Shown here: positions 37,590-48,788 of the stretch, piece by piece
How the letters are laid out: every line of letters begins with the position of its first letter
Position numbering within the stretch: position 1 is the stretch's first letter
Assembly: GCF_024159085.1 (NCBI RefSeq)
Contig: NZ_JAMZDE010000008.1
Coordinates: 124,001-188,000 of the forward strand
Length of the DNA: 64,000 nt
Reading direction: 5' to 3'
From: Idiomarina rhizosphaerae
GTDB lineage: Bacteria; Pseudomonadota; Gammaproteobacteria; Enterobacterales; Alteromonadaceae
Made by a program: the position numbers and the translations under genes
Notes under the pieces: generated by a model
Database searches by the model: none
The model's input: only the letters and a program-made list of their open reading frames with translations
What the model was told of the DNA's origin: nothing

Positions 37590-38009
37590 ATGAGCAACCT
37601 GGACAAAGATAAGGTAATCGCTGAATATACGGAAGCTTATCAAAAAGCTCACGGTAAAAAGCCTAAAATTGAAAGCAGTAACGGCTGGTATAGCGTTGAT
37701 GGAGGCAAAAATGTGCGCCTGAGTCAGTTAGCTGACGACGCGAAAACGCTTGGTAAAGAGAAGAAGGCTGCGCCTAAAAAGTCGGAGTCGAAGAAAACTG
37801 AAACCAAAAAAACTGAAACGAAAAAGCCTGCGGCTAAAAAAGCTGAGACTAAGAAGCCAGCAGCTAAAAAACCTGCTGCGAAGAAATCTTCAGCTAAGCC
37901 ATCTCCGGCGAAAAAATCCAGCTCTGGCGGCTTAACCGCAAAAGAACTGTGGAAACAAAAGTTAGAAGGTAAAGACAGTGATTGTCGTTTACCTCGGGGC
38001 AGTGCATAA
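37590..38009 (+). CDS. Lysine-rich histone H1-like protein
   Basis: This 139-residue very basic protein has an N-terminal segment of about 57 residues (KVIAEYTEAYQKAHGKKPKI, then NGWYSVDGGKNVRLSQL) that looks folded, and a middle tract of about 60 residues made of KKTETKK and KPAAKK repeats like histone H1, AlgP or HctB tails. The C-terminal part is GLTAKELWKQKLEGKDSDC. Such tails bind DNA or RNA without specificity. The DNA of the tail is itself repetitive (AAGCCTGCGGCTAAAAAA-like units), so its length may vary between strains. It stands alone, with a good AAGGAA site and its own terminator. Function is not known. Confidence 0.75.
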   Translation: MSNLDKDKVIAEYTEAYQKAHGKKPKIESSNGWYSVDGGKNVRLSQLADDAKTLGKEKKAAPKKSESKKTETKKTETKKPAAKKAETKKPAAKKPAAKKSSAKPSPAKKSSSGGLTAKELWKQKLEGKDSDCRLPRGSA

Positions 38010-38026
38010 AAGCCACCGCCATAAGT

Positions 38027-38056
38027 AAAAAAAGCGACCTTAATGGTCGCTTTTTT
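38027..38056. terminator. Bidirectional terminator after the lysine-rich protein gene
   Basis: GCGACC (38034-38039) and GGTCGC (38045-38050) form a stem flanked by seven A residues and six T residues, so it works for both the plus-strand H1-like gene and the minus-strand gene ending at 38059. Confidence 0.88.
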
Positions 38057-38058
38057 CG

Positions 38059-38316
38059 TTATAGAACGTCCGGATTTTTGCCGGCAACGCGGTCAATTGG
38101 AACTTTTATTTTACGATAGCGATGCACTAAAAAGTCGCTACGTTTGAAAATAACTTTTTCAGAACCAAAGTCAGCCTGAGACACCAGGAAGCGGTCGTTA
38201 TCCAGTGTTTTTGCTATAATTCCTAACTTCCCCTGATGCGGTCCACGCTTAATAAAAATGGTCTGCCCTTGTATGCGGGGGTTGTTATAAGAAAATGTCG
38301 GATAATTAATTGCCAC
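38059..38316 (-). CDS. Small protein with KOW-like segment, unknown function
   Basis: This is an 85-residue basic protein starting at a GTG (AGGGA lies 8 bases upstream). Residues 20-48 (TIFIKRGPHQGKLGIIAKTL and following DNDRFLV) resemble a KOW motif, the small beta-strand RNA- or protein-binding unit of NusG and ribosomal proteins; the rest, with KRSDFLVHRYRKIKVP, is basic. It is a stand-alone gene with a TATAAT just upstream. I do not recognise a named family; nucleic-acid binding is an inference. Confidence 0.7.
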   Translation of the reverse strand: MAINYPTFSYNNPRIQGQTIFIKRGPHQGKLGIIAKTLDNDRFLVSQADFGSEKVIFKRSDFLVHRYRKIKVPIDRVAGKNPDVL

Positions 38317-38357
38317 TGCCGTTTCCCTAAACCTTTTAAGGCTATATCAATATCAGG

Positions 38358-38363
38358 ATTATA
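38358..38363 (-). promoter_or_regulatory. -10 element upstream of the KOW-like gene
   Basis: On the minus strand a perfect TATAAT lies about 42 bp before the GTG start. The -35 at 17-bp spacing (CTGTCG) is poor, so the call rests on the -10 alone. Confidence 0.45.
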
Positions 38364-38399
38364 CTCCTATTATCGGTCACCGACAGAGATTCTTGATAT

Positions 38400-38927
38400 T
38401 TATTTCTTACCAATATAGAGCGTTATCTCACCAACCGGGAAGCCCCATTTAGACATGTCGGTACGGTTAATCATATTGTTCTCGTCAATAAGATACAGCC
38501 AATCATCCAACGTCAATACCAGTGGCTCGCCGTCTACCACAACTTCAAGTTGGTACTCCCAGTTAAGAACATTGCCTGCTGTTGTACCTTTAGCAACACC
38601 TTCAACATCGTCTGCGCGCCCTTCATAGCTATTCGGGCCAGTTTTCGTTATGTGCCAGACGCGTTGCTGCTCACGACCATCGGCATAAGTAAAATGTTCA
38701 TCGAGAACGCCTTCGTTACCTTCCCAGGTACCTGTCATGGTTACCTCGAAACGCTGAATCACTTCACCGCTGTAGTCCTGCACCATACCGTAAGCAACCA
38801 GTTCACCGTTAAAGAATTCTTCAAGCTTTAACTTTGGCTCTGCTGACTTATAAGCATCAATGCCGGTTGAGCACGCCGCGAGTAAACTGAGTAAAACAGT
38901 AAAGCCTAAAACCTTTAAAGCCTTCAT
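38400..38927 (-). CDS. DUF3833 family lipoprotein
   Basis: This 175-residue lipoprotein precursor has signal MKALKVLGFTVLLSLLAACS, with LAAC as lipobox. The mature protein carries LKLEEFFNGELVAYGMVQDY and VTMTGTWEGNEGVLDEHFTY, the DUF3833 signature, and ends with LYIGKK. The fold is probably a lipocalin-like barrel. I chose the ATG at 38927 because GGGGAG precedes it and the lipoprotein signal starts there. It begins 1 bp after the stop of the chalcone-isomerase-like gene and is the last gene of the ten-gene operon, so a role in membrane lipid handling is inferred from context. Confidence 0.87.
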   Translation of the reverse strand: MKALKVLGFTVLLSLLAACSTGIDAYKSAEPKLKLEEFFNGELVAYGMVQDYSGEVIQRFEVTMTGTWEGNEGVLDEHFTYADGREQQRVWHITKTGPNSYEGRADDVEGVAKGTTAGNVLNWEYQLEVVVDGEPLVLTLDDWLYLIDENNMINRTDMSKWGFPVGEITLYIGKK

Positions 38928-38928
38928 T

Positions 38929-39435
38929 TTATTTCTCCCCAATGAGTTCATTACGCTCAGATTCAAAGCGGCTGTTTTCCGACAGCCAAATAGCTAAAAA
39001 CTGCTCAGTAAAGTCTTTATCTTCAATTTCGCCCAGCAACTTATCGCCCTGGTAAAATTCTGCTGTTCCATCTTCCTTTTCAACTAAGAGCAGGCAGTCG
39101 CCCTCTTTAATGTCAGGCCAGATTGAATTCAGTTTTTCTAACCATTGCTCGTGTTTATCACTATTCAGTTCCAGCTTCTGCCATTCTTCTTCCGTCGTTT
39201 CGATAAGATCTTCCGCCTTAATATCACGCAGGTATTCCAGTAACAGAGCTTGTCGTTCGTCCTGTTTATACTTACCTGTCGGACTATATAAAGTGGCATC
39301 ATAAACGTCCCAGAAATACACGCTGAGCCGAGTTTGCCCAACTTTAGAAAAGTCATCGGGTACGGAATCGGTGCATTCAGCGGCATACGAATTAAGGCTG
39401 AAAAGCGCAATAATTCCGCATAAAATGAATTTCAT
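38929..39435 (-). CDS. Exported chalcone-isomerase-like protein
   Basis: This 168-residue protein has a signal peptide (MKFILCGIIALFSLNSYA). The mature start (KVGQTRLSVYFWDVYDATLY) and the motif GDCLLLVEKEDGTAEFYQGD fit the bacterial chalcone isomerase-like family (Chalcone_3). Plant relatives of this fold include fatty-acid-binding proteins as well as true isomerases, so a lipid-binding role is more probable than flavonoid chemistry. It lies 3 bp after the DUF2878 gene and 1 bp before the DUF3833 gene, in the photolyase-cfa operon. Confidence 0.82.
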   Translation of the reverse strand: MKFILCGIIALFSLNSYAAECTDSVPDDFSKVGQTRLSVYFWDVYDATLYSPTGKYKQDERQALLLEYLRDIKAEDLIETTEEEWQKLELNSDKHEQWLEKLNSIWPDIKEGDCLLLVEKEDGTAEFYQGDKLLGEIEDKDFTEQFLAIWLSENSRFESERNELIGEK

Positions 39436-39438
39436 ACT

Positions 39439-39939
39439 CTACACTCCCTGTTCTTTCTTAGGTGACATGCAAAAAACAAAATACGCCATCATTAGTCCCC
39501 ATACAGCGGCATAACAAGCAATAACAATGGGCAGTGAGTCAACGGTTGCTGCATTAAGCTTTATTCCTGCAACATAGCTTAAAGGACCAGAAACAGCACC
39601 GAGCAGAACCGCTACTGCCGGTTTAGGTGCAAGCCAGTCCAGTGCTACCGGCGCCATAGATGAAAAGCCCAGCCACAGCATGACCAGCCACAAAGGAAAG
39701 TATCCTCCGGCAAAATCGATAACGCCCAGGCTAATCACTATAGCCTCCAGCAATAATCCAACCGCAAACAGCCGCAAAATTAGGGTCCAGCTGACCCTGG
39801 CTACGGCAATGCTGTAGAAAAACTGCGAGGCTAATAAAACGCCGCTAAGCACAATATAGTTCTCACGGCCGGAAACAGCACTGAACCAAAGTGCATTGAA
39901 CAGAACAAAACTGACAATTTTATGCTGAATAGATGTCAT
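39439..39939 (-). CDS. DUF2878 integral membrane protein
   Basis: This 166-residue hydrophobic protein has about five membrane helices; NALWFSAVSGRENYIVLSGV and the segment FPLWLVMLWLGFSSM are typical of DUF2878. The C-terminus MSPKKEQGV is basic and probably cytoplasmic. The start overlaps the stop of the cyclopropane-synthase-like gene by 1 bp. Function is unknown; the family commonly accompanies the DUF1365/cfa gene set. Confidence 0.82.
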   Translation of the reverse strand: MTSIQHKIVSFVLFNALWFSAVSGRENYIVLSGVLLASQFFYSIAVARVSWTLILRLFAVGLLLEAIVISLGVIDFAGGYFPLWLVMLWLGFSSMAPVALDWLAPKPAVAVLLGAVSGPLSYVAGIKLNAATVDSLPIVIACYAAVWGLMMAYFVFCMSPKKEQGV

Positions 39940-41177
39940 TAGTAGGCCTGCGATTTGCTGGCGGTAACCTGAACAACCGATACCCGTTGCTCCAGAAAGC
40001 CGCCTTCACAATAGCTGAAATAGTAGTTCCAAAGTCTGGAAAAGCGTTCATCGTAACCAAGCTTTTCTAGCTCGCTTTCATGGGCATTAAACCGTTCTTC
40101 CCACTGTCTCAGAGTTTTTGCGTAACTCAGACCAAAGTCGTGCACGTCACGTACCACCAAGTCGGTGTAACGTGTAAACAGTTGCGTCATTTGGCTTAAA
40201 GACGGAAGAAAACCACCGGGGAAGATATGCTTTTGAATAAAATCTACGGAGCGAGCATAGGATTTAGCCCGTTGGTCGGCAATAGTGATAGCCTGTAAGG
40301 ACATTCTTCCGTCTTCTTTTAACAATTTGTTGCAGGTTTTGAAAAAGGTCGGTAAGTATTCCTTTCCTACCGCTTCTATCATTTCAACCGAGACCAACTT
40401 GTCGTACTGTCCTTCTAAGTCACGGTAGTCACGCTTCAACAGTTCAATTCTGTCGGACAAGCCCGCCGCTTCAACTTGCTGCTTAGCGTACTGAAATTGC
40501 TCATCTGAAATTGTCGTCGTTGTTACCCGGCAACCATAATTCTTTGCCGCATAAATGGCCAGTCCGCCCCAACCTGTGCCTATTTCCAACAAGTGGTCTT
40601 GTGCTTTTAAATCAAGCGAATCGCATAAGCGCTGCATTTTATTGCACTGAGCTTGCTCCAGTGAGTCTGCAGGCTCTTTAAATAAGCCACTGGAATATTG
40701 CATGGCGCTATCAAGAAAACGGGTATAAAGCTCGTTACCCAGGTCATAGTGGGCTGATATATTCTTTTTTGCCTGTCCTTTATGGTTACGATTACTCCAG
40801 TGCTGGTATTTGTTAAAGGGAAAAGTTAACCAGGCCAGTCGCGTTTCTAGTTTATCTAAGGCCGGTAAGTTACGGGCAAAAATACGAATAACCGAGGTTA
40901 AATCGGGAGTATCCCAATGCTTATCAATATACAACTCGGCTGCACCAATACTGCCACCAGTAACCAGGCGACGGTAAAAAGACGAATCCTTCACGTCAAT
41001 TTCAGCGTTCAGGTCTTTATCGGGATGCCCGAAAGCTTCAATGAACGTGCCTTTTTCTTTTATCGTCAACTGCCCATACTGCAAATGAGCTAATAGCTTA
41101 AAAGCGATAGTACGGAAAAGCTTATCCAATACACCATACTGAATAGGCGCTACCATAGTTGTTTCACCACTGGACAT
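39939..41177 (-). CDS. cfa: Cyclopropane-fatty-acyl-phospholipid synthase-like methyltransferase
   Basis: This 412-residue SAM-dependent enzyme (COG2230 type) has an N-terminal lipid-binding domain, then KNISAHYDLGNELYTRFLD, QYSSGLF, SAM motif LLEIGTGWGGLAIYAA, TTTTISDEQ and VEMIEAVGKEYLPTFF, which carry the family's active-site positions. It would transfer a methylene or methyl group to unsaturated phospholipid chains. In Rhodobacter sphaeroides, members of this family in the ChrR/RpoE regulon are needed for cyclopropane or furan fatty acids, so this copy may make a photoprotective lipid rather than standard cyclopropane. It follows DUF1365 by 21 bp with AAGG upstream. Confidence 0.87.
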   Translation of the reverse strand: MSSGETTMVAPIQYGVLDKLFRTIAFKLLAHLQYGQLTIKEKGTFIEAFGHPDKDLNAEIDVKDSSFYRRLVTGGSIGAAELYIDKHWDTPDLTSVIRIFARNLPALDKLETRLAWLTFPFNKYQHWSNRNHKGQAKKNISAHYDLGNELYTRFLDSAMQYSSGLFKEPADSLEQAQCNKMQRLCDSLDLKAQDHLLEIGTGWGGLAIYAAKNYGCRVTTTTISDEQFQYAKQQVEAAGLSDRIELLKRDYRDLEGQYDKLVSVEMIEAVGKEYLPTFFKTCNKLLKEDGRMSLQAITIADQRAKSYARSVDFIQKHIFPGGFLPSLSQMTQLFTRYTDLVVRDVHDFGLSYAKTLRQWEERFNAHESELEKLGYDERFSRLWNYYFSYCEGGFLEQRVSVVQVTASKSQAY

Positions 41178-41198
41178 ACAAACTGCCTTCTAATTATT

Positions 41199-41921
41199 TT
41201 AGTTACCAGGGTTTCCGTAAAATGGAACCCGCTTGATAAAAAGCTTTAACGCCTGCCAATAAATGCCCCCAATAATTTTAAGAGCCATAACAGGTGTTGT
41301 TCTTAATACGCGGTAAACTTCACTACGGTTTAGCGGTTGTCTATTTAATTTCATGCCAGCAACAAAATCTTTCTCTTGTTGGTGGGCGCTTAGAGTGATT
41401 TTTAAACTCTCGGTGGGTGGCTCTATCTGCCAGTGGTAGGTCATATCCATAGGGTTAAACGGAGAAACGTGGAATTGTTTTACAGTTTCCGGAGACTCTT
41501 CTGACAAGTCGACCAGGTAATAATGACGTTGCAGCCAGGGCGTATTGCTGACTTCAGCTAGCATGTGCGTATATTCGTCATTGTCCTGCCGAAGAAAATA
41601 CAAATTAATGGGGCTAAAAAAAATTCCAAAGGTACGTAAGTTACCGACAAATAGAACCTGACCGGTTAAATCTTTTCCGGCAAGGGAGGACATTTTCTTT
41701 AGTGCCGCCCGGTGTAAACTGCCCTGTTCATCTTTTAGGTAGTCTTTTCGACGAAACCAAAGGGGAGCAAAATTGTTACAGGATAACCAGCGACTTATAG
41801 AGTTGACTTGGTCGAGTTCAGATAAATCGATACACCATTGTTGAAAACGGTAATTAAAAGCGTGGTGTTTGGGTCGATGTCTTACATGAAAAACATCGCC
41901 CCAATAAATGGCGCTCTTCAT
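41199..41921 (-). CDS. DUF1365 family protein
   Basis: This 240-residue protein begins with the DUF1365 signature AIYWGDVFHVRHRPKHHAFN and contains FGIFFSPINLYFL, HMLAEVSNTPW and FNPMDMTYHW. It has no signal peptide. Family members nearly always lie between an FAD amine-oxidase-like gene and a cfa-like gene, as here. A role in modifying fatty acyl chains is inferred from that company; no reaction is established to my knowledge. The start overlaps the stop of the FAD gene in ATGA. Confidence 0.88.
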   Translation of the reverse strand: MKSAIYWGDVFHVRHRPKHHAFNYRFQQWCIDLSELDQVNSISRWLSCNNFAPLWFRRKDYLKDEQGSLHRAALKKMSSLAGKDLTGQVLFVGNLRTFGIFFSPINLYFLRQDNDEYTHMLAEVSNTPWLQRHYYLVDLSEESPETVKQFHVSPFNPMDMTYHWQIEPPTESLKITLSAHQQEKDFVAGMKLNRQPLNRSEVYRVLRTTPVMALKIIGGIYWQALKLFIKRVPFYGNPGN

Positions 41922-43192
41922 GAGTTATCAATCGATTCAGTATTCAAACGGTTAACAACATCAATGGCACTTCTTACACCGTCTTCATGAAAACCGTTAT
42001 ACCAATAAGCACCAACAAAATGAGTACTATTTTTGCCACAAATTGCATTTCGTTCTGCTCTGGCTTTTAAAGACTGAACGGAATATTGCGGGTGCTCATA
42101 GGTAAAGGTTTTAATGATCTCATCAAAATCAATTGCAGCTGTATTGTTCAGTGTAACGCACACGGTTTTATCACATTGCAACCCTTGCAGGATATTCATA
42201 TTGTAGGTTACTGAACTGGGTTGCTCTTCTGCTGCATCATCTTCTCTTAATAAATAGTTCCAACTTGCCCAGGCACGTCGGCTTCTGGGTAACAAGTTCT
42301 CATCAGTATGCAGAACAACCTCATTCGGGCAGTATTTTATCTCATCAAGAATACGCCTTTCGTCGGGGCTAGCATCGTCAAGTAAAGCTAGCGCCTGGTC
42401 ACTGTGACAGGCGAAAATCACCTCATCAAAATAACGTTCCTCGCCACTACTAAAGACAAGAACAACCTGTTCCTGTTGGCGCTTAACCGCAACAATTTCA
42501 CTGTTTAGCTCAAGCCTTTCTTTAAACGGTTCTGTCAGCATTGGAATGTACGCGTGAGAACCACCAACCAAAGTATGCCACTGAGGACGGTCGCTAACAT
42601 TCAATAACCCATGGTTATCAAAGAAACGTAAGAAAAAGCCCAGAGGAAAGTCCTTCGCATCGGCCAGACTTGCAGACCATATAGCGGAAACCATTGGTAA
42701 TAAGTAGTAGTGCGAGACCGATTCCGGAATATCGTGCCGTGTAAGGAATTCTGCCAACGTAATATTGTCCGCCTCGTTGACATCCTCTTCTAACGCATTT
42801 TTAGCGGCCGCGTTAAATTTCAGAATACCCTGTAACAAACGGTAAAAAGACAAACTAAACAAATTTTTCCGCTGCGCAAACAGTGTATTAAGGTTATGTC
42901 CGTTAAACTCCAGTCCCGACTTAGGATCACGTACACTGAAACTCATTTCAGTGTCGCGCCAGGCCACTTTCAGCTCTGTTAACAGGCGTTTAAAACGTGG
43001 ATACGTCTTATCATTAAAAACAATAAAGCCTGTATCCACAGCATACATACTGCCATTAATTTTCACATCGCTGGTACAGGTATGCCCACCAATATAGTCA
43101 TTTTTTTCAAATACACTGACTTGATGTTCACGACTTAAATAATAAGCACTGGTAAGACCCGCAATACCACTTCCAATAACGGCTATCTTCAT
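41918..43192 (-). CDS. FAD-dependent amine-oxidase/desaturase-like oxidoreductase
   Basis: This 424-residue flavoprotein (COG2907 type) has the dinucleotide-binding motif IAVIGSGIAGLTSAYYLS, VFEKNDYIGGHT with the ribose-binding Glu, DTGFIVFNDKTYPRF near residue 53 and the C-terminal GAYWYNGFHEDGVRSA that closes the FAD site. It is related to phytoene desaturases and amine oxidases. In this operon it may oxidise an acyl chain next to the cfa-like methyltransferase; the substrate is unknown. It overlaps its neighbours by 4 bp on each side. Confidence 0.87.
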   Translation of the reverse strand: MKIAVIGSGIAGLTSAYYLSREHQVSVFEKNDYIGGHTCTSDVKINGSMYAVDTGFIVFNDKTYPRFKRLLTELKVAWRDTEMSFSVRDPKSGLEFNGHNLNTLFAQRKNLFSLSFYRLLQGILKFNAAAKNALEEDVNEADNITLAEFLTRHDIPESVSHYYLLPMVSAIWSASLADAKDFPLGFFLRFFDNHGLLNVSDRPQWHTLVGGSHAYIPMLTEPFKERLELNSEIVAVKRQQEQVVLVFSSGEERYFDEVIFACHSDQALALLDDASPDERRILDEIKYCPNEVVLHTDENLLPRSRRAWASWNYLLREDDAAEEQPSSVTYNMNILQGLQCDKTVCVTLNNTAAIDFDEIIKTFTYEHPQYSVQSLKARAERNAICGKNSTHFVGAYWYNGFHEDGVRSAIDVVNRLNTESIDNS

Positions 43193-43920
43193 GACGACTG
43201 CTTCCTTGCCATTTGTTCTGATAATTTCACTTGTAAGCCTTCCGGCAAAATAGACATTAACTTCAGAAGGCTACTAAATAGCCACGGAAATGCGATGTCC
43301 CGTTTGTTCTTATTAATACCTTTTATTATTGCCTTCGACGCAAATTCAACGTCAACGCGCATTGGCATCTCAAAATCATTGGCATCAGTCATTGGTGTTT
43401 TCACAAACCCGGGTGATACGGTTTGAACTTTGATTCCCTGAGGTTTCAAATCAACCTCCAACCCCCGGGCGATATAATGCATTGCTGCTTTTGAGCCACC
43501 ATAAGCCTGAGCCCGGGTAAACGGAAGAAGTCTCGCCAGGCTGTCAACAATCACCAGACGCGCCGAGTCACTGAACTGAGGAAGTAAAGCTTCCACGCAA
43601 TTCATTGTGCCGAACACATTCACTTTAAACACCCGCTCAAACATGTCCGCATCGAACGCTTTAACGTCGAGGTATTCACACACCCCCGCGCACAGTATGG
43701 CGACATCAATATCGTTAATTTGCGCTAACGCGTTTTTTGCCGACTCTTTATCGGTAATATCAAAGGCGCTGCAGGTTATTTTTTCAGGGTATTGTTTTTG
43801 TACCTCTGACAGTGCGTCGTTATTTCTTCCACACACAACAACGTCATTGCCGTCAGCTGCATAATCCAGAGCCAGCTGACGCCCAATACCTGATGAAGCT
43901 CCAGTAATTAAGACTTTCAT
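43189..43920 (-). CDS. Short-chain dehydrogenase/reductase
   Basis: This is a 243-residue classical SDR. The cofactor motif ITGASSGIGRQLA is at the N-terminus, ILCAGV at about residue 75, the catalytic Ser in LVIVDSLARL and the Tyr-x-x-x-Lys in AYGGSKAAMHY. SPGFVKTPMTDAN follows. The C-terminal basic part (MARKQSS) is short. It is linked by ATGA overlaps to the SnoaL-like gene before it and the FAD gene after it. An SDR accompanies related ChrR-controlled operons in other proteobacteria; substrate unknown. Confidence 0.88.
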   Translation of the reverse strand: MKVLITGASSGIGRQLALDYAADGNDVVVCGRNNDALSEVQKQYPEKITCSAFDITDKESAKNALAQINDIDVAILCAGVCEYLDVKAFDADMFERVFKVNVFGTMNCVEALLPQFSDSARLVIVDSLARLLPFTRAQAYGGSKAAMHYIARGLEVDLKPQGIKVQTVSPGFVKTPMTDANDFEMPMRVDVEFASKAIIKGINKNKRDIAFPWLFSSLLKLMSILPEGLQVKLSEQMARKQSS

Positions 43921-44351
43921 TCGTCTGTTAGCCTATTTTTAATTTTATCAATGACATAACCGACTAGCGGTACGTGTTCATAAAGCATTGCGCCAAGGTC
44001 GTAATAATCTCTCTGCTCTCTTATTTTGCCGTCTTCAAAGGTTAAATACGAAACTCCCGGCAGAATAATTTCCATGCCATTAGCGAGCTTGGGGTGTGCG
44101 TAACGCATCTGCCAAGTTAGAAACGCCTGTTCTTCTCCGACGCATTCATCGTCAAAAGCAAAGTGACAATACTCAACGTTTTCCATTGTGTGTTTTAGAT
44201 ACTTGCGAAAATCGTCCAGCCCGACAACATGTTGTATTGGATCAGTAAACGAAATTTCGTCATGGTATAACTCATCCAGGTCATCAAGGTTTTCGGTTTT
44301 CAGCTCATCGTAGAATTCTTTGAGTTTTTCGACTAATTCACTGTTATCCAT
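43917..44351 (-). CDS. SnoaL-like/NTF2-fold protein
   Basis: This 144-residue small cytosolic protein has an NTF2-like pattern: helical start LVEKLKEFYDELKTENLDD, then DEISFTDPIQHVVGLDDF, and strands FLTWQMRYAHPKL and ILPGVSYLTFEDGKI. This fold makes a cone with a hydrophobic pocket and is used by isomerases, hydrolases or binding proteins. The gene overlaps the photolyase stop by 8 bp and the SDR start by 4 bp. No specific activity can be read from sequence. Confidence 0.82.
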   Translation of the reverse strand: MDNSELVEKLKEFYDELKTENLDDLDELYHDEISFTDPIQHVVGLDDFRKYLKHTMENVEYCHFAFDDECVGEEQAFLTWQMRYAHPKLANGMEIILPGVSYLTFEDGKIREQRDYYDLGAMLYEHVPLVGYVIDKIKNRLTDE

Positions 44352-45750
44352 TTTTCACCTGCTTAAACGTTGTTAAGAATCGTTCACGAGCAAATTTGTG
44401 CTCGACCATGGGTTCGCAATAGTTATTACTACTTTGTTGCTGAAGCCAACTATGAGGCCAGTGAATATACTTTGTTGGTACTTCCTTAAGCTCGTCTACC
44501 CATTTACGAATGTACTGCCCGTCAGGATCAAATTTCTCACTTTGCTTAACCGGATTAAAAACACGAAAATACGGAACGGCGTCAGTTCCGACCGAAGCAC
44601 TCCATTGCCAGCCACCATTGTTTGCCGGAAAGCTCCCGTCAATTAAATGCTGCATGAAGAAGGCTTCGCCTTTTCGCCAATCCACTAATAGATCTTTTAC
44701 CAGAAAATTGGCTGTGATCATTCTTAAGCGGTTGTGCATCCACCCGGTTGATGTCAATTGACGCATTCCGGCGTCAACAATTGGATACCCGGTGCGACCG
44801 TTACACCAGCGTTGAAAAGCGTCATCGTCCTCTAACCACTGAATGCTGTCGGTTTCAGTCTGAAAGCTTTCACCTCTTGATAAACGCGGCACAAAGTACA
44901 TTAGATGCTGATAGAACTCTCTCCATGCCAGTTCGGTAAGCCAGGTATCGGCACCGGAAGCAAGTCCAAACGGAAATTCCGGCGAAAACTTATGTAGCGC
45001 CCGGACAGCCGTCTGCGGTCCGATAACACCCTGCGCCAAATAAGCGGAAAGTTGTGAGGTTCCGTTTTCAGCCGGTAAGTCTCTGGCTTGTTGATAATCA
45101 TCAACCCTGTGGCCAACGAATTGCCCTAGTTTCCCCAGAACTTGTTGCTCGCCGGCACTCCAGTCAGACGAGTCTTTTCTCGCCAGCGGGCATTCAGGGA
45201 GGCCTTTTGAGGTCACCGGAGAAAAAGGTTTAATCTGCAGCGGTTCGCTGTAAGCTTTTTCGCTTAACACTTGTCGCCAACGCCGGTTAAAAGGCGTGAA
45301 CTTTTTGTAGTAGTCCCCTTGTTGTGTTCTGACCTCTCCGGGCGCCACCAACAAGTTGCCATGATGCGAAATCAGTTCGATATCGTCATTACTTAGTACC
45401 GCATTGGTAGCTGCGTCTCTACGTTTTTCATCCAGCGCATATTCCGCATTAATATGTACTCGGTCGACTCTATTTTCCCGACAGAAGGATCGTAAAGCTC
45501 CCGGAACCTGACTGAATTTGGGTACTAATTGCACTTCCAGTTCAATGCCCTTTTCAGCTAAATCCTGCTGCAGGCAGTCTAAGTTTCGCCAGACAAAATC
45601 TACTTTTATCGGTGCCCAGTCATGGCTTTTCCAGGTTTCATGGCACACAAAAAAAATCGCCAACGGAGGCTCATCGCCCTGGTATGCAGAAAACACGGCC
45701 GGGTTATCTAATATTCTTAAATCACTACGAAACCAAATTGCTTCTCGCAT
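44344..45750 (-). CDS. phr: Deoxyribodipyrimidine photolyase (class I)
   Basis: This 468-residue photolyase uses light to split cyclobutane pyrimidine dimers. The N-terminal antenna domain begins with IWFRSDLRILDNPAVF; the FAD domain has ELAWREFYQHLMYF, GYPIVDAGMRQLTSTGWMHN and FPANNGGWQWSASVGTDAVP, with the tryptophans used in photoreduction and the asparagine near FAD. I used the ATG at 45750; an in-frame GTG directly before it at 45753 overlaps the previous stop. It lies in the ten-gene operon directly after the TudS/DUF1722 gene, and photolyase is a known target of ChrR-controlled sigma factors. Confidence 0.95.
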   Translation of the reverse strand: MREAIWFRSDLRILDNPAVFSAYQGDEPPLAIFFVCHETWKSHDWAPIKVDFVWRNLDCLQQDLAEKGIELEVQLVPKFSQVPGALRSFCRENRVDRVHINAEYALDEKRRDAATNAVLSNDDIELISHHGNLLVAPGEVRTQQGDYYKKFTPFNRRWRQVLSEKAYSEPLQIKPFSPVTSKGLPECPLARKDSSDWSAGEQQVLGKLGQFVGHRVDDYQQARDLPAENGTSQLSAYLAQGVIGPQTAVRALHKFSPEFPFGLASGADTWLTELAWREFYQHLMYFVPRLSRGESFQTETDSIQWLEDDDAFQRWCNGRTGYPIVDAGMRQLTSTGWMHNRLRMITANFLVKDLLVDWRKGEAFFMQHLIDGSFPANNGGWQWSASVGTDAVPYFRVFNPVKQSEKFDPDGQYIRKWVDELKEVPTKYIHWPHSWLQQQSSNNYCEPMVEHKFARERFLTTFKQVKNG

Positions 45751-45752
45751 CA

Positions 45753-46688
45753 CTACAGCCCATAACGTAATTTTAAATCATCGGGATACGGAGTCAGATA
45801 CCATTGCCCTTCTAAGTACTCTTTTGGAAACTCGCGCAAATAATGCCGTATTAACGTTAGAGGAGACATCAGAGGGAGAATGCCATCGTGATACTGCAGA
45901 ATGATATCGCTCAGCTCTTCTCGTCTTTCATGAGCAAGATCCGCTTTAAAATACCCCTGAATATGTTGGAGCACATTGGTGTGGTTCTTGCGGGAGGCCG
46001 GTTTTGATAAAGCATCCATCACATCAATGATATATTGCTCTGCAAAGGCACTGTCGATGCTTTCCTGTTCCCCCAGACGTTTACCCAACTCGCGGTAACG
46101 CTGCTGATTATGGGCTAACAAAAGTAGCTTGCAGCGCTGGTGAAACTGCAAAAGCTGATGTTTGGAAAGTTTCTGTGTCATTTCTTTCCATTGACTAAAC
46201 ACATAAACCCGCATAACAAAGTTTTCACGTAAATGCGGGTCATTGAGCCGACCATCTTCTTCCAAAGGCAAAGCGGGATTCTTTTCTTTTAGACGCGCGG
46301 CAAAAATTCCCATTCCTGCTTTTTGTGCATGCCCGGTTTCCGGATCATATAACTTGACCCGCTCCATACCGCAGCTAGGAGATTTCGCACATAGAATGTA
46401 GCCGCTTAACTGTTCTATTTTCACCTGAACCTTATCGGCAAAGGCTGCTAGCTGTGACGTAACATTTTCACCGGTTTTGGGCACTACCGCCTGTACATCG
46501 TCATGTTGCTCAAGCCGAATAGTCGGTCTTGGCACCGGCATTCCAATACCTACTTCAGGGCAAAAGCGCACCAGTTCAATGTGTCGATTTAATTCATCAA
46601 CGCAGAATGCGGATTTCTTGTGTCCTCCGTCAAACCTGACCTCATCGCCCATTAAACAGGAACTAATACCCACTTTTAATTTTGTCAT
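45753..46688 (-). CDS. rudS: TudS (DUF523) + DUF1722 (YbgA) fusion, RudS-like tRNA 4-thiouridine desulfidase
   Basis: This 311-residue protein has two domains. Residues 1-150 are DUF523, with three conserved cysteines in GISSCLMGDEVRFDGGHK, RFCPEVGIGMPVPRPTIRL and CAKSPSCGMERVKLYD, expected to hold a [4Fe-4S] cluster for thiouracil desulfuration. Residues 160-311 are DUF1722 (YbgA), ending GQWYLTPYPDDLKLRYGL. This fusion is the architecture described for RudS, which removes sulfur from 4-thiouridine in tRNA. s4U at position 8 is the near-UV sensor in bacterial tRNA, so a place ahead of photolyase is sensible. It is the first gene of the ten-gene operon; AGGGG precedes the start. The specific activity is inferred from domains. 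Confidence 0.85.
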   Translation of the reverse strand: MTKLKVGISSCLMGDEVRFDGGHKKSAFCVDELNRHIELVRFCPEVGIGMPVPRPTIRLEQHDDVQAVVPKTGENVTSQLAAFADKVQVKIEQLSGYILCAKSPSCGMERVKLYDPETGHAQKAGMGIFAARLKEKNPALPLEEDGRLNDPHLRENFVMRVYVFSQWKEMTQKLSKHQLLQFHQRCKLLLLAHNQQRYRELGKRLGEQESIDSAFAEQYIIDVMDALSKPASRKNHTNVLQHIQGYFKADLAHERREELSDIILQYHDGILPLMSPLTLIRHYLREFPKEYLEGQWYLTPYPDDLKLRYGL

Positions 46689-46766
46689 TTTAACCCCTGT
46701 TGAATTTCACTGACAATAATGTACGGTATATTGCTAAAAATAGTTTGGCATTTATTCGATAAAAAA

Positions 46767-46794
46767 GATCCAACCAGACCCGCCTCAACGTAAT
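46767..46794 (+). promoter_or_regulatory. Candidate ECF-sigma promoter upstream of the LON-domain gene
   Basis: GATCC (46767-46771) and CGTAAT (46789-46794) are separated by 17 bp, 40 bp ahead of the LON gene. GATCC matches the -35 core (TGATCC) known for ChrR-linked RpoE sigma factors. The same two elements recur before the sigma gene itself, but with 15-bp spacing. It is an inference from two examples. Confidence 0.45.
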
Positions 46795-46833
46795 GTTTCT
46801 TAATTGTTCAAACTACTAGCCAAATGAGGTTAT

Positions 46834-47412
46834 ATGCAGCAGTATCAGCAGTTACCGCTATTTCCGCTTACGTCGCATATAATGCCGGGCGGACGCATGA
46901 AATTGAAGGTGTTCGAGCCCCGCTACACCAGGCTGGTAAAAGAGTGTCTGCAAAATGACAGTGAGTTTGTGGTGGCCATGTTTAACAACGAACATGCAAC
47001 GACATCAAGCGATTACCTTCTTCCTTACGCCACCACCGTAAAGATTATTGATTTTGAGCCAAGAGATGATGGTTTACTCGGTATAACCGTTGAAGGAAAA
47101 AGTCGGGTTCGCATTGACGAGCATTGGTCTGAAAGCGATAAATTAAGGTTTGGGAAAATAGAGTACCTCGAAAACTGGCCTGAACTTTCTCTGGATAACG
47201 CAGCCGATAAACTCAAAACTCGATTACAGGAAGCTTTCGAGACCTACCCGGAACTTTCCGAGTTGTTACCTGATCTCGGCTACGAGAAACTTGATTGGGT
47301 TTGTTCAAGGTGGCTTGAAATACTGCCTCTGGACGTCTATACAAAACAAGAGCTGATAAGATGCGAAAGTTGTCTAAAAGCAAAAGAATATCTGTTAGAC
47401 TTAATTCGTTAA
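46834..47412 (+). CDS. LON substrate-binding-domain protein
   Basis: This 192-residue cytosolic protein has the LON N-terminal (PUA-like) domain: LPLFPLTSHIMPGGRMKLKV, FEPRYTRLVKECLQND, ATTVKIIDFEPRDDGLLGIT and VEGKSRVRI. The C-terminal helical part is as in stand-alone LON-domain proteins; no ATPase or protease domain follows. GAGGT lies before the start. It is divergent from the TudS/DUF1722 gene and 88 bp upstream of the sigma-factor gene, so it could be the first target or a member of the regulatory set. Biochemical role unknown. Confidence 0.85.
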   Translation: MQQYQQLPLFPLTSHIMPGGRMKLKVFEPRYTRLVKECLQNDSEFVVAMFNNEHATTSSDYLLPYATTVKIIDFEPRDDGLLGITVEGKSRVRIDEHWSESDKLRFGKIEYLENWPELSLDNAADKLKTRLQEAFETYPELSELLPDLGYEKLDWVCSRWLEILPLDVYTKQELIRCESCLKAKEYLLDLIR

Positions 47413-47437
47413 TTGAGTAAACATTCTGCCATCTGGG

Positions 47438-47464
47438 TGATCCATTTTCTCAACACCCCGTAAT
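47438..47464 (+). promoter_or_regulatory. Candidate autoregulatory ECF-sigma promoter before the rpoE-like gene
   Basis: TGATCC (47438-47443) matches the -35 of ChrR-associated sigma factors, and CGTAAT (47459-47464) lies 15 bp downstream. It is about 37 bp ahead of the first start codon of the sigma gene and resembles the element at 46767, suggesting the sigma factor activates its own operon. Confidence 0.5.
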
Positions 47465-47500
47465 AGTTAGAACATTGTGTGAAAAGAAGCAGGTCTAATT

Positions 47501-48121
47501 ATGCAAATGGTGTCAGAAAGAACATCGAATCGGGGGTCTATGGCTACCACCCAGACAGACGCTGCCGAGAAAGCAGCGGAACTGCTGGCAAAGATTGCAG
47601 AAAATAGAAATCGCGCTGCCTTTAGTGAACTCTTTAGGTTATTCGCACCCAAACTGCAGTCTTACGCTACAAGACAATTTGGAAATGAACAAACGGCTAT
47701 GGATCTCGTCCAGGAAACCATGACTAACGTCTGGCATAAAGCTCACTTGTTCAAGCCTGACCGTGGCTCTCCTTCCACTTGGATATTTACCATAGCTCGT
47801 AACATCCGCTTCGATTTGCTTCGTAAGAACAAAAAACGTAAAGATGATATTAGTGCAGATGAACTCTGGCCGATTCTTTCAGAGCAGAACGATAGCCTCG
47901 ACGACGGTTACGCATTGGATCACGATGTTCTGATGCAGGAAATTTCTTTCTATTACGCTCAATTGCCCGATGCACAACGGGTTGTTATTGAGAAGATTTA
48001 TATTGAAGGTAAATCTCAGCAGGAAGTCTCTGACGCCCTGGGAGTGCCTTTAGGGACAATTAAGTCCCGAACTCGTCTAGCATTAAAAAAATTGAAAGAG
48101 TTGATAGTCGATGATGATTAA
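47501..48121 (+). CDS. rpoE: ECF sigma factor of the ChrR-controlled (RpoE, ECF11-like) group
   Basis: This 206-residue sigma-70 family protein has only regions 2 and 4. Region 2 spans LFRLFAPKLQSYATRQFGNE to GSPSTWIFTIARNIRFDLLR, with DLVQETMTNVWHKA between; region 4 has EKIYIEGKSQQEVSDALGVP and TIKSRTRLALKKLKELI as the helix-turn-helix. The open frame has three possible ATGs (47501, 47507, 47540); the first has AGGT at suitable distance, the last GGGGG. It overlaps chrR by 11 bp. The pairing with a ChrR-type anti-sigma makes this the singlet-oxygen/photo-oxidative stress sigma factor. Confidence 0.9.
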   Translation: MQMVSERTSNRGSMATTQTDAAEKAAELLAKIAENRNRAAFSELFRLFAPKLQSYATRQFGNEQTAMDLVQETMTNVWHKAHLFKPDRGSPSTWIFTIARNIRFDLLRKNKKRKDDISADELWPILSEQNDSLDDGYALDHDVLMQEISFYYAQLPDAQRVVIEKIYIEGKSQQEVSDALGVPLGTIKSRTRLALKKLKELIVDDD

Positions 48122-48788
48122 ATCACACCCAGGCGAAGGCCTTTTATATCAGTACGCCTCTGGCGATCTTAGCGCGGCAATGACGTTAGTTGTAGGCACA
48201 CACATCGATATGTGTAAAGCGTGTCGTCAAACCGTGTGTGAAATTGAGCAGAAGCTGTGTGAAGAAAATTTGGATACATTGGTTAGTGTTGCCAGTACAA
48301 CAATGAGCAAGTCTCAATGTGACCAAATGCTGGAAGCCATTTTCGCGTCTTCTGCATGTAATAAACAAGCACACCAGCCAAATGAGATACTGTCTCTGGA
48401 AGGTCGTCGCTTTACACTGCCTCGTACCCTGGCTCACAACAGTCATCGCATTGGGGAGTGGTCGAAACTGGTCGGTAAACTCTGGCGCGCACCGTTAACT
48501 CTGGACAATGGGAATCAGACGAACTTGATTTACATGGCGCCAGGAGCAAAACTCCCGGAGCATACGCACAAAGGAAAAGAAGCGACGCTGGTTATTGATG
48601 GTGTTTTTAATGACGAGCAGAGCGAGTACCGGGACGGCGATTTTATTTTGCTAGACCCTAGTCGTACCCATACTCCGGAAACTCAGGATGAAGACTGTTT
48701 AACTCTGGCTACGCTGGATGCGCCCTTACACTTTACTTCTGGTATCAGCCGGTTACTGAATCCCTTTAGCCAGCTCTTCTTTCGTTAG
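48111..48788 (+). CDS. chrR: ChrR-type zinc anti-sigma factor with cupin domain
   Basis: This 225-residue cytosolic anti-sigma factor has N-terminal zinc ligands His6, His31, Cys35 and Cys38 (HPGEGLLYQYASGDL, then GTHIDMCKACRQTVC). These are the same residue numbers as in Rhodobacter ChrR. The C-terminal cupin domain has HTHKGKEATLVIDG and RDGDFILLDPSRTHTPE, which carry the second metal site that senses singlet oxygen or hydroperoxides in that family. An ATG at 48114 is an alternative start that would shift these numbers by one. Overlap of 11 bp with the sigma gene couples their synthesis and keeps sigma inactive without stress. Confidence 0.92.
   Translation: MMIKSHPGEGLLYQYASGDLSAAMTLVVGTHIDMCKACRQTVCEIEQKLCEENLDTLVSVASTTMSKSQCDQMLEAIFASSACNKQAHQPNEILSLEGRRFTLPRTLAHNSHRIGEWSKLVGKLWRAPLTLDNGNQTNLIYMAPGAKLPEHTHKGKEATLVIDGVFNDEQSEYRDGDFILLDPSRTHTPETQDEDCLTLATLDAPLHFTSGISRLLNPFSQLFFR

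Follow-up and report, generated by a model that had tools for sequence, protein, structure and literature searches.

What does a run of ten tightly packed genes do beside a sigma factor and a ChrR-type anti-sigma factor in Idiomarina rhizosphaerae? The locus lies in a 64,000-nucleotide stretch of contig NZ_JAMZDE010000008.1 (positions 124,001 to 188,000 of the forward strand; the window, below) of assembly GCF_024159085.1, a 2.87-Mb genome in 9 contigs. A preliminary description of this DNA had proposed a single light-stress program, in which a ten-gene operon that repairs DNA, edits tRNA and remodels membrane lipid stands divergent from a sigma-ChrR pair. The operon itself is borne out: the ten genes lie on the minus strand at 46688-38400, all ten families were recovered by Pfam in the order rudS to DUF3833, and eight of the nine junctions overlap or span 3 bp at most (-1, -8, -4, -4, -4, +21, -1 and +3 bp from rudS to the chalcone-isomerase-like gene, then +1 bp given a DUF3833 start at ATG 38927), the DUF1365-CMAS junction of 21 bp being the exception. 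The sigma-ChrR pair does lie on the opposite strand, but the operon's immediate divergent neighbor, overlooked at first, is a gene for a LON-domain protein, and the genes for the extracytoplasmic function (ECF) sigma factor and ChrR follow behind it. The locus is very likely a photo-oxidative stress regulon of the RpoE-ChrR (ECF11) type as it occurs in Idiomarina, the ten-gene operon included. Gene content, conservation, promoter sites, active-site substitutions and co-occurrence were observed directly; from them we infer all the activities, the response to light, control of the operon by the sigma factor and the role of its last three genes.

Conservation of the locus was assessed by searching for RudS, the product of the first operon gene, in 40 genomes including this one. 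Matches were found in 34, and 31 regions were compared after setting aside the window itself and two weak matches to TudS alone: 18 from other Idiomarina (19 with the window) and 13 from outside the genus. All 18 other Idiomarina retain the block PheT-IHF-ChrR-ECF-LON-RudS-Phr-SnoaL, which is thus present in 19/19 genomes and is not a chance assembly. The genes beyond SnoaL, through DUF3833, are kept in 17 of the 18, and all ten operon genes in 18/19. I. zobellii retains RudS, photolyase, SnoaL, LON, sigma and ChrR and has lost most of the stretch from SDR to DUF3833, and the rest of its genome has no DUF1365 match. In the one draft genome concerned, of strain KMM 231, the SDR, flavoprotein and DUF3833 genes persist only as in-place remnants (L049:12600-13300). 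In the 13 genomes from outside the genus, the photolyase comes after RudS in 10, and the flavoprotein, DUF1365 and CMAS genes come next in 8; in 4 of the 13 the LON-ECF-ChrR genes stand immediately before rudS and share its strand (region L078 is cut by a contig end), and in Pseudoalteromonas sp. CF6-2 all 13 genes share one strand. By comparison with these genomes, the LON-ECF-ChrR block of Idiomarina seems to have been inverted relative to the operon.

The assignment to the RpoE-ChrR class begins with the two regulators. The best PDB match of the sigma factor is 2q1z, the R. sphaeroides RpoE-ChrR complex (E 3.1e-33, the next best being 3.9e-14), and that of its partner is 2z2s; the partner also carries PF12973 and the motifs HxxxCxxC at 31 and HxHxxxE at 151, the residues of the latter presumably being cupin ligands. 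The former is the zinc motif given for ChrR (PMC11976125). Upstream of the sigma gene, a site TGATC[CT]-N15-17-[CA]GT occurs in 19/19 Idiomarina, with TGATCC in 17 and TGATCT in 2, and with a -10 of CGT in 15 and AGT in 4; upstream of the LON gene, AGATCC-N16-17-CGT likewise occurs in 19/19. As judged from these sites, the sigma gene carries a predicted promoter of the autoregulatory type of the ECF11 RpoE-ChrR class. Over the whole genome there are 8 matches to TGATC-CGTA[AT]T against 2 for a reversed control; besides the one at the sigma gene, one lies before an oxidoreductase gene and the others inside genes or away from gene starts. The match before the oxidoreductase gene (TGATCAATTCCCCTTGAATTCTGCGTAAT; L126/L015, G000:C8:425732-425760, minus strand) ends 28 bp before an open reading frame of 378 amino acids that by eye resembles an NADH:flavin oxidoreductase (old yellow enzyme) and is a possible further target of the sigma factor.

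The lipid genes of the operon allow its function to be narrowed. The flavin oxidoreductase, DUF1365 and CMAS genes are contiguous and match, in families and order, the ufaD-ufaO-ufaM genes of R. palustris, in which UfaD is phytoene-desaturase-like and UfaO bears DUF1365, and which together suffice to make a methylated furan fatty acid (PMC7380195). An ordinary cyclopropane synthase, with cyclopropanation as the means of protection in the way suggested for V. cholerae VC1122, is an improbable alternative. The best PDB match of the CMAS protein is indeed E. coli Cfa, and VC1122 was interpreted as Cfa by its authors; against this, the protein scores 291 where the NCBIfam Cfa cut-off is 400, and its neighbors belong to the UfaD and UfaO families. 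We take C139, E239, H266, I268 and Y317 of E. coli Cfa to form its bicarbonate site; E239, I268 and Y317 are kept here, while C139 is replaced by S and H266 by Q in 26/26 operon-linked orthologs. Halomonas UfaM expressed in E. coli also yielded the furan intermediate, with cyclic acids seen in the same strain too. The lipid part of the operon thus probably makes furan fatty acids, and with two Cfa residues gone from every operon-linked ortholog, the earlier phrase of remodeling membrane lipid gains its most likely specific meaning. In R. sphaeroides, ChrR turnover in singlet oxygen needs the furan-lipid genes, and furan fatty acids are destroyed by singlet oxygen (PMC6852236); by analogy the operon may therefore feed the sensor ChrR. 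I. zobellii, with sigma-ChrR kept and the lipid genes lost, is a natural case in which to see whether ChrR release requires furan lipids.

Control of the operon itself is less straightforward. Upstream of rudS stands a variant site, [CGA]AA[AT]C[TC]-N16-CGT, found in 18/19 Idiomarina and beginning about 58-93 nt before rudS in the aligned upstream DNA; in the exception (L054) the first base of the -10 differs. Among 2000 Markov-1 samples drawn for six clade representatives, none had the variant in more than 2 of the 6, and the reversed pattern occurs upstream of rudS in 0/19. For seven other genes of the region the variant stands upstream in 0/19 (0/18 for DUF3833, absent from I. zobellii), the one exception among the seven being the HC2-like gene with 1/19; the 6 and 7 of 19 found before sigma and LON arise because their GATC sites fit the pattern too. 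Outside the genus, TGATCC-N16-CGT precedes rudS in two regions (L069 and L080), TGAACT-N16-CGTATT in L075, and looser GATC sites in L071 and L081. Sites of the variant kind are used by the homologous sigma factor of P. syringae, PSPTO_1043, for which chromatin immunoprecipitation (ChIP) peaks contain CAAACT-N16-CGTA (PSPTO_4675, raised 4.23-fold by overexpression) and GAAACG-N16-CGTA (PSPTO_4723, 4.19-fold), beside AGATCC-N16-CGTA before phrB (14.29-fold) (PMC5507510).

Several observations weigh against the proposed reading, in its regulatory and in its lipid part. An NGATC-type site with CGTA is absent from the 300 nt upstream of rudS in 19/19 Idiomarina (a bare TGATC occurs there once, in L064 at -291). 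The variant pattern was picked after viewing the alignment, its -35 takes the form CAAACC in four Idiomarina genomes, and across this genome the CAAACT variant stays at control level (23 matches, where the reversed pattern gives 26). Neither kind of site stands before rudS in 8 of the 13 non-Idiomarina regions; in 4 of those 8, rudS directly follows chrR. In P. syringae, phrB has a ChIP score of 67.29 and the CAAACT and GAAACG sites have scores of 7.98 and 4.26, and no significant induction is reported for a CAAACC-N16-CGTA site (PSPTO_2853) (PMC5507510). As for the lipids, iso-branched C15/C17 chains are given as the main ones in Idiomarina (PMC13272253), and the word furan is absent from the text of that paper; the natural substrate may therefore be an 18:1 chain present in small amounts, or an iso chain of an unusual kind. 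Since the P. syringae sigma factor acts, if weakly, at sites of this kind, the operon is most likely under the same sigma factor, with a weaker or altered promoter. The idea of one light-stress program finds good support in homology, in the canonical-type sigma and LON promoters and in published experiments on the counterpart operons of Shewanella and Pseudomonas, but direct sigma-ChrR control of the operon in Idiomarina, with a degenerate -35 in place of TGATCC, is less certain than the shared program.

Two further possibilities concerning these sites were discarded. A wide regulon of CAAACT sites was rejected for want of any excess over the reversed pattern in the genome, and candidate internal promoters (one TGATCC-type match inside the phr coding DNA and five loose variant matches on the operon strand) were taken as chance.

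Another ECF sigma factor, such as a general RpoE, or several of them, could drive the operon and leave sigma-ChrR a mere neighbor. The operon -35, AAACT, with the T-rich DNA after it resembles the GAACTT-type RpoE promoters listed for S. oneidensis (PMC4336711), and the genome has 13 PF08281 matches (12 above cut-off, some of them not ECF genes); yet the operon site shows the -10 CGT[AT] and 16-base spacing of ECF11 sites, and in P. syringae a gene with CAAACT-N16-CGTA responds to an ECF11 sigma factor (PMC5507510), which makes this explanation unlikely. The one specific candidate was a second ECF gene. Just upstream of it stands a look-alike, CAAACTATTTT...CGTCT, and of the 15 other Idiomarina genomes searched, 8 hold relatives of this gene that are 41-47% identical. 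Its distribution is too patchy for the part: in the other 7 of the 15 the best matches reach only 26-29% identity, yet rudS is present in every one of these 7 and the operon site in 6 (L054 again the exception), so it was rejected as the operon's regulator. This second ECF gene lies with a zinc-finger anti-sigma gene at L123:5088-6397, with CAAACTATTTTAGTTCCTTCCGCGTCT about 25 bp upstream.

The first two operon genes have predicted roles against light damage. The first product is RudS by sequence, and hence a predicted eraser of 4-thiouridine in tRNA: it is related to TudS (6z92), has the SSCLMG, FCPEV and SPSCG motifs, and aligns C11, C43 and C106, which we take to be cluster ligands. The photolyase passes the NCBIfam PRK10674 cut-off, as expected of a class I CPD photolyase, PhrB. 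RudS is reported to strip 4-thiouridine, a near-UV target, and its genes often lie in light-responsive operons alongside photolyases; the TudS-DUF1722 fusion inside a photolyase operon described there is also what is found here, under inferred sigma-ChrR control in Idiomarina and under LitR in Pseudomonas (PMC11417400). Control by a MerR/LitR repressor that depends on B12, as in the phrB-litR-rudS arrangement of Pseudomonas, where LitR governs RudS and photolyase (PMC11417400), was rejected as highly improbable here, even with V. cholerae using both MerR and ChrR, as none of the three MerR_1 matches in the genome is a candidate (the 352-residue one matches TipAS and lacks a B12-binding domain, the other two, of 156 and 136 residues, are judged by length too short for one) and no merR gene is among the cluster genes. 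The genome has a second gene of the photolyase/cryptochrome family (L125:4809-6170), with no ECF11-type site within 300 nt upstream.

The last three genes, for DUF2878, chalcone-isomerase-like and DUF3833 proteins, are additions of the Idiomarina operon relative to the Ufa pathway (PMC7380195). Among 119 genomes of the order, DUF1365 was found in 65 and DUF3833 in 57, and 56 of those 57 have both (Fisher p 4e-23, relatedness not corrected); in 41 of the 56 the two lie within 12 kb. This co-occurrence suggests that the pathway has an envelope part, so far unstudied, and the lipobox of the DUF3833 protein and the signal-peptide-like N-terminus of the chalcone-like protein place both in the envelope. 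An Aeromonas predicted operon of NTF2, SDR, FAD, DUF1365, cfa and DUF2878 genes falls in expression with riboflavin, and a LON gene stands in the same table (PMC10012899). In the literature searched for DUF3833, DUF2878, chalcone isomerase-like and DUF1365, one paper names two of the four. A ChrR-cupin profile was tried as a presence marker and found in 56 of the 65 DUF1365 genomes; it proved weak because it also matches other cupins (up to 6 per genome). Structure predictions of the DUF1365 and DUF3833 proteins from five close sequences each had mean confidence scores (pLDDT) of 61.1 and 59.2 and were not used; Foldseek returned nothing under E 0.001 for them, with lipocalin-like barrels among the top matches. 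A part for the three genes in furan-lipid handling would fit this pattern, and they are marked as candidate furan-lipid genes for study. A bolder proposal, which we hold only tentatively and think rather doubtful, is that they form a second half of bacterial furan metabolism, for envelope carriage or disposal of furan lipids and their singlet-oxygen products, and that sigma-ChrR acts in two tiers in Idiomarina, with the operon placed in the second and slower one by its drifted -35.

Taken together, a response of the following kind is proposed. Light and a photosensitizer would generate singlet oxygen or organic peroxides, upon which ChrR would let go of the sigma factor. The freed sigma factor would transcribe its own gene, chrR and LON from the TGATCC/AGATCC-CGTAAT promoters, and the ten-gene operon from the degenerate promoter CAAACT-N16-CGTACA. 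The photolyase would then mend pyrimidine dimers and RudS would remove photoreactive 4-thiouridine from tRNA, while phospholipid acyl chains would become furan fatty acids in three steps, by the methyltransferase UfaM, the desaturase UfaD and the oxygenase UfaO. The furan fatty acids would react with singlet oxygen, with possible feedback on ChrR turnover, and the DUF2878, chalcone-isomerase-like and DUF3833 proteins would probably serve in envelope handling of furan lipids. DNA repair, tRNA de-modification and, as predicted, furan lipid synthesis would thus share one transcript in a small-genome heterotroph, so that one mutant would test all three. The earlier remark that half of the genes lack a known reaction no longer holds, as RudS, UfaD, UfaM and the DUF1365 protein UfaO have published roles.

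Features of the locus, in window coordinates, with the basis of each assignment
Feature	Position	Strand	Basis
rudS, TudS desulfidase fused to DUF1722	45753..46688	-	PF04463 140 bits; PF08349 136.6 bits
phr, cyclobutane pyrimidine dimer (CPD) photolyase	44344..45753	-	NCBIfam PRK10674 511.1 bits, cut-off 506
SnoaL/NTF2-like protein	43917..44351	-	PF12680
SDR oxidoreductase	43189..43920	-	PF00106
UfaD-like flavin oxidoreductase, predicted methyl-fatty-acyl desaturase	41918..43192	-	PF01593, PF13450; position before DUF1365 and CMAS
DUF1365 protein, UfaO-like, predicted O2-dependent furan-forming enzyme	41199..41921	-	PF07103 243 bits
CMAS methyltransferase, UfaM-like rather than Cfa	39939..41177	-	PF02353 285 bits
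DUF2878 hydrophobic protein, probably membrane	39439..39939	-	PF11086; sequence inspection
Chalcone-isomerase-like protein, signal-peptide-like N-terminus	38929..39435	-	PF16036; N-terminus by eye
DUF3833 lipoprotein, lipobox LAAC, start ATG 38927	38400..38927	-	PF12915 224 bits; lipobox
Candidate promoter of the operon, CAAACT-N16-CGTACA, 31 nt before rudS	46720..46747	-	Site class in 18/19 Idiomarina; CAAACT-N16-CGTA exact in window
LON promoter (predicted) AGATCC-N17-CGTAAT	46766..46794	+	Site kind in 19/19 Idiomarina; exact in window
LON substrate-binding-domain protein, 192 amino acids, without protease domain	46834..47412	+	PF02190 84 bits, sole family found
sigma-chrR promoter (predicted) TGATCC-N15-CGTAAT	47438..47464	+	Site kind in 19/19 Idiomarina; exact in window
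ECF sigma factor, R. sphaeroides RpoE (ECF11) type	47501..48121	+	PDB 2q1z chain A, E 3.1e-33
ChrR anti-sigma factor	48111..48788	+	PDB 2z2s chain B, E 5e-23; H31xxxCxxC, H151xHxxxE

Beyond the DUF3833 gene, no terminator was found on the operon strand within 38000-38420. Adjoining the operon in 19/19 Idiomarina are genes for a Lys/Ala-rich histone-like protein (HC2, below the Pfam cut-off; 37590-38009) and a KOW-motif/DUF3912 protein (38059-38316).

The preliminary description implied a new module, but the module is already described and the locus is the Idiomarina version of a known light-damage response: counterparts exist under homologous sigma factors in Shewanella and P. syringae, and Pseudoalteromonas sp. 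CF6-2 has a cluster of the same 13 genes. The core regulon in print comprises sigma-chrR and furan lipid genes, with photolyase (PMC6852236, PMC5507510). In S. oneidensis, RpoE2, the partner of ChrR, raises SO_3386, the first gene of a ybgA-phrB...cfa operon (SO_3386-SO_3374), and the LON gene SO_1987, with induction of SO_3386, SO_1987 and chrR seen by reverse transcription PCR; the promoters are TGATCC-N16-CGTAAT, as in the ECF11 type (PMC4336711). The likeness lies in ybgA, phrB and cfa, the three operon genes named in that source, and in LON, all under a ChrR-partner sigma factor; by its locus tags the S. oneidensis operon lies away from the sigma gene and has the canonical TGATCC, whereas that of Idiomarina adjoins the sigma gene on the opposite strand and has a degenerate -35 (PMC4336711). 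P. syringae shares the sigma-ChrR pair (PSPTO_1043/1042), a phrB-cfa locus and sites of the AGATCC and CAAACT types, but its phrB-cfa locus is separate from the sigma gene, unlike that of Idiomarina (PMC5507510). The likeness to the Ufa pathway of R. sphaeroides and R. palustris, compared by family and order, extends to the three UfaM-UfaD-UfaO families, the R. palustris order and RpoE-ChrR in the genome (PMC7380195). In Pseudoalteromonas sp. CF6-2 (NZ_CP091443.1, 433-443 kb), TGATCG-N16-CGTAAT precedes LON and TGATCC-N16-CGTATT precedes sigma, with neither promoter pattern within 220 nt before rudS. It has all 13 genes in the same order inside each block, and differs from Idiomarina in that they lie on a single strand, with the operon genes directly after chrR.

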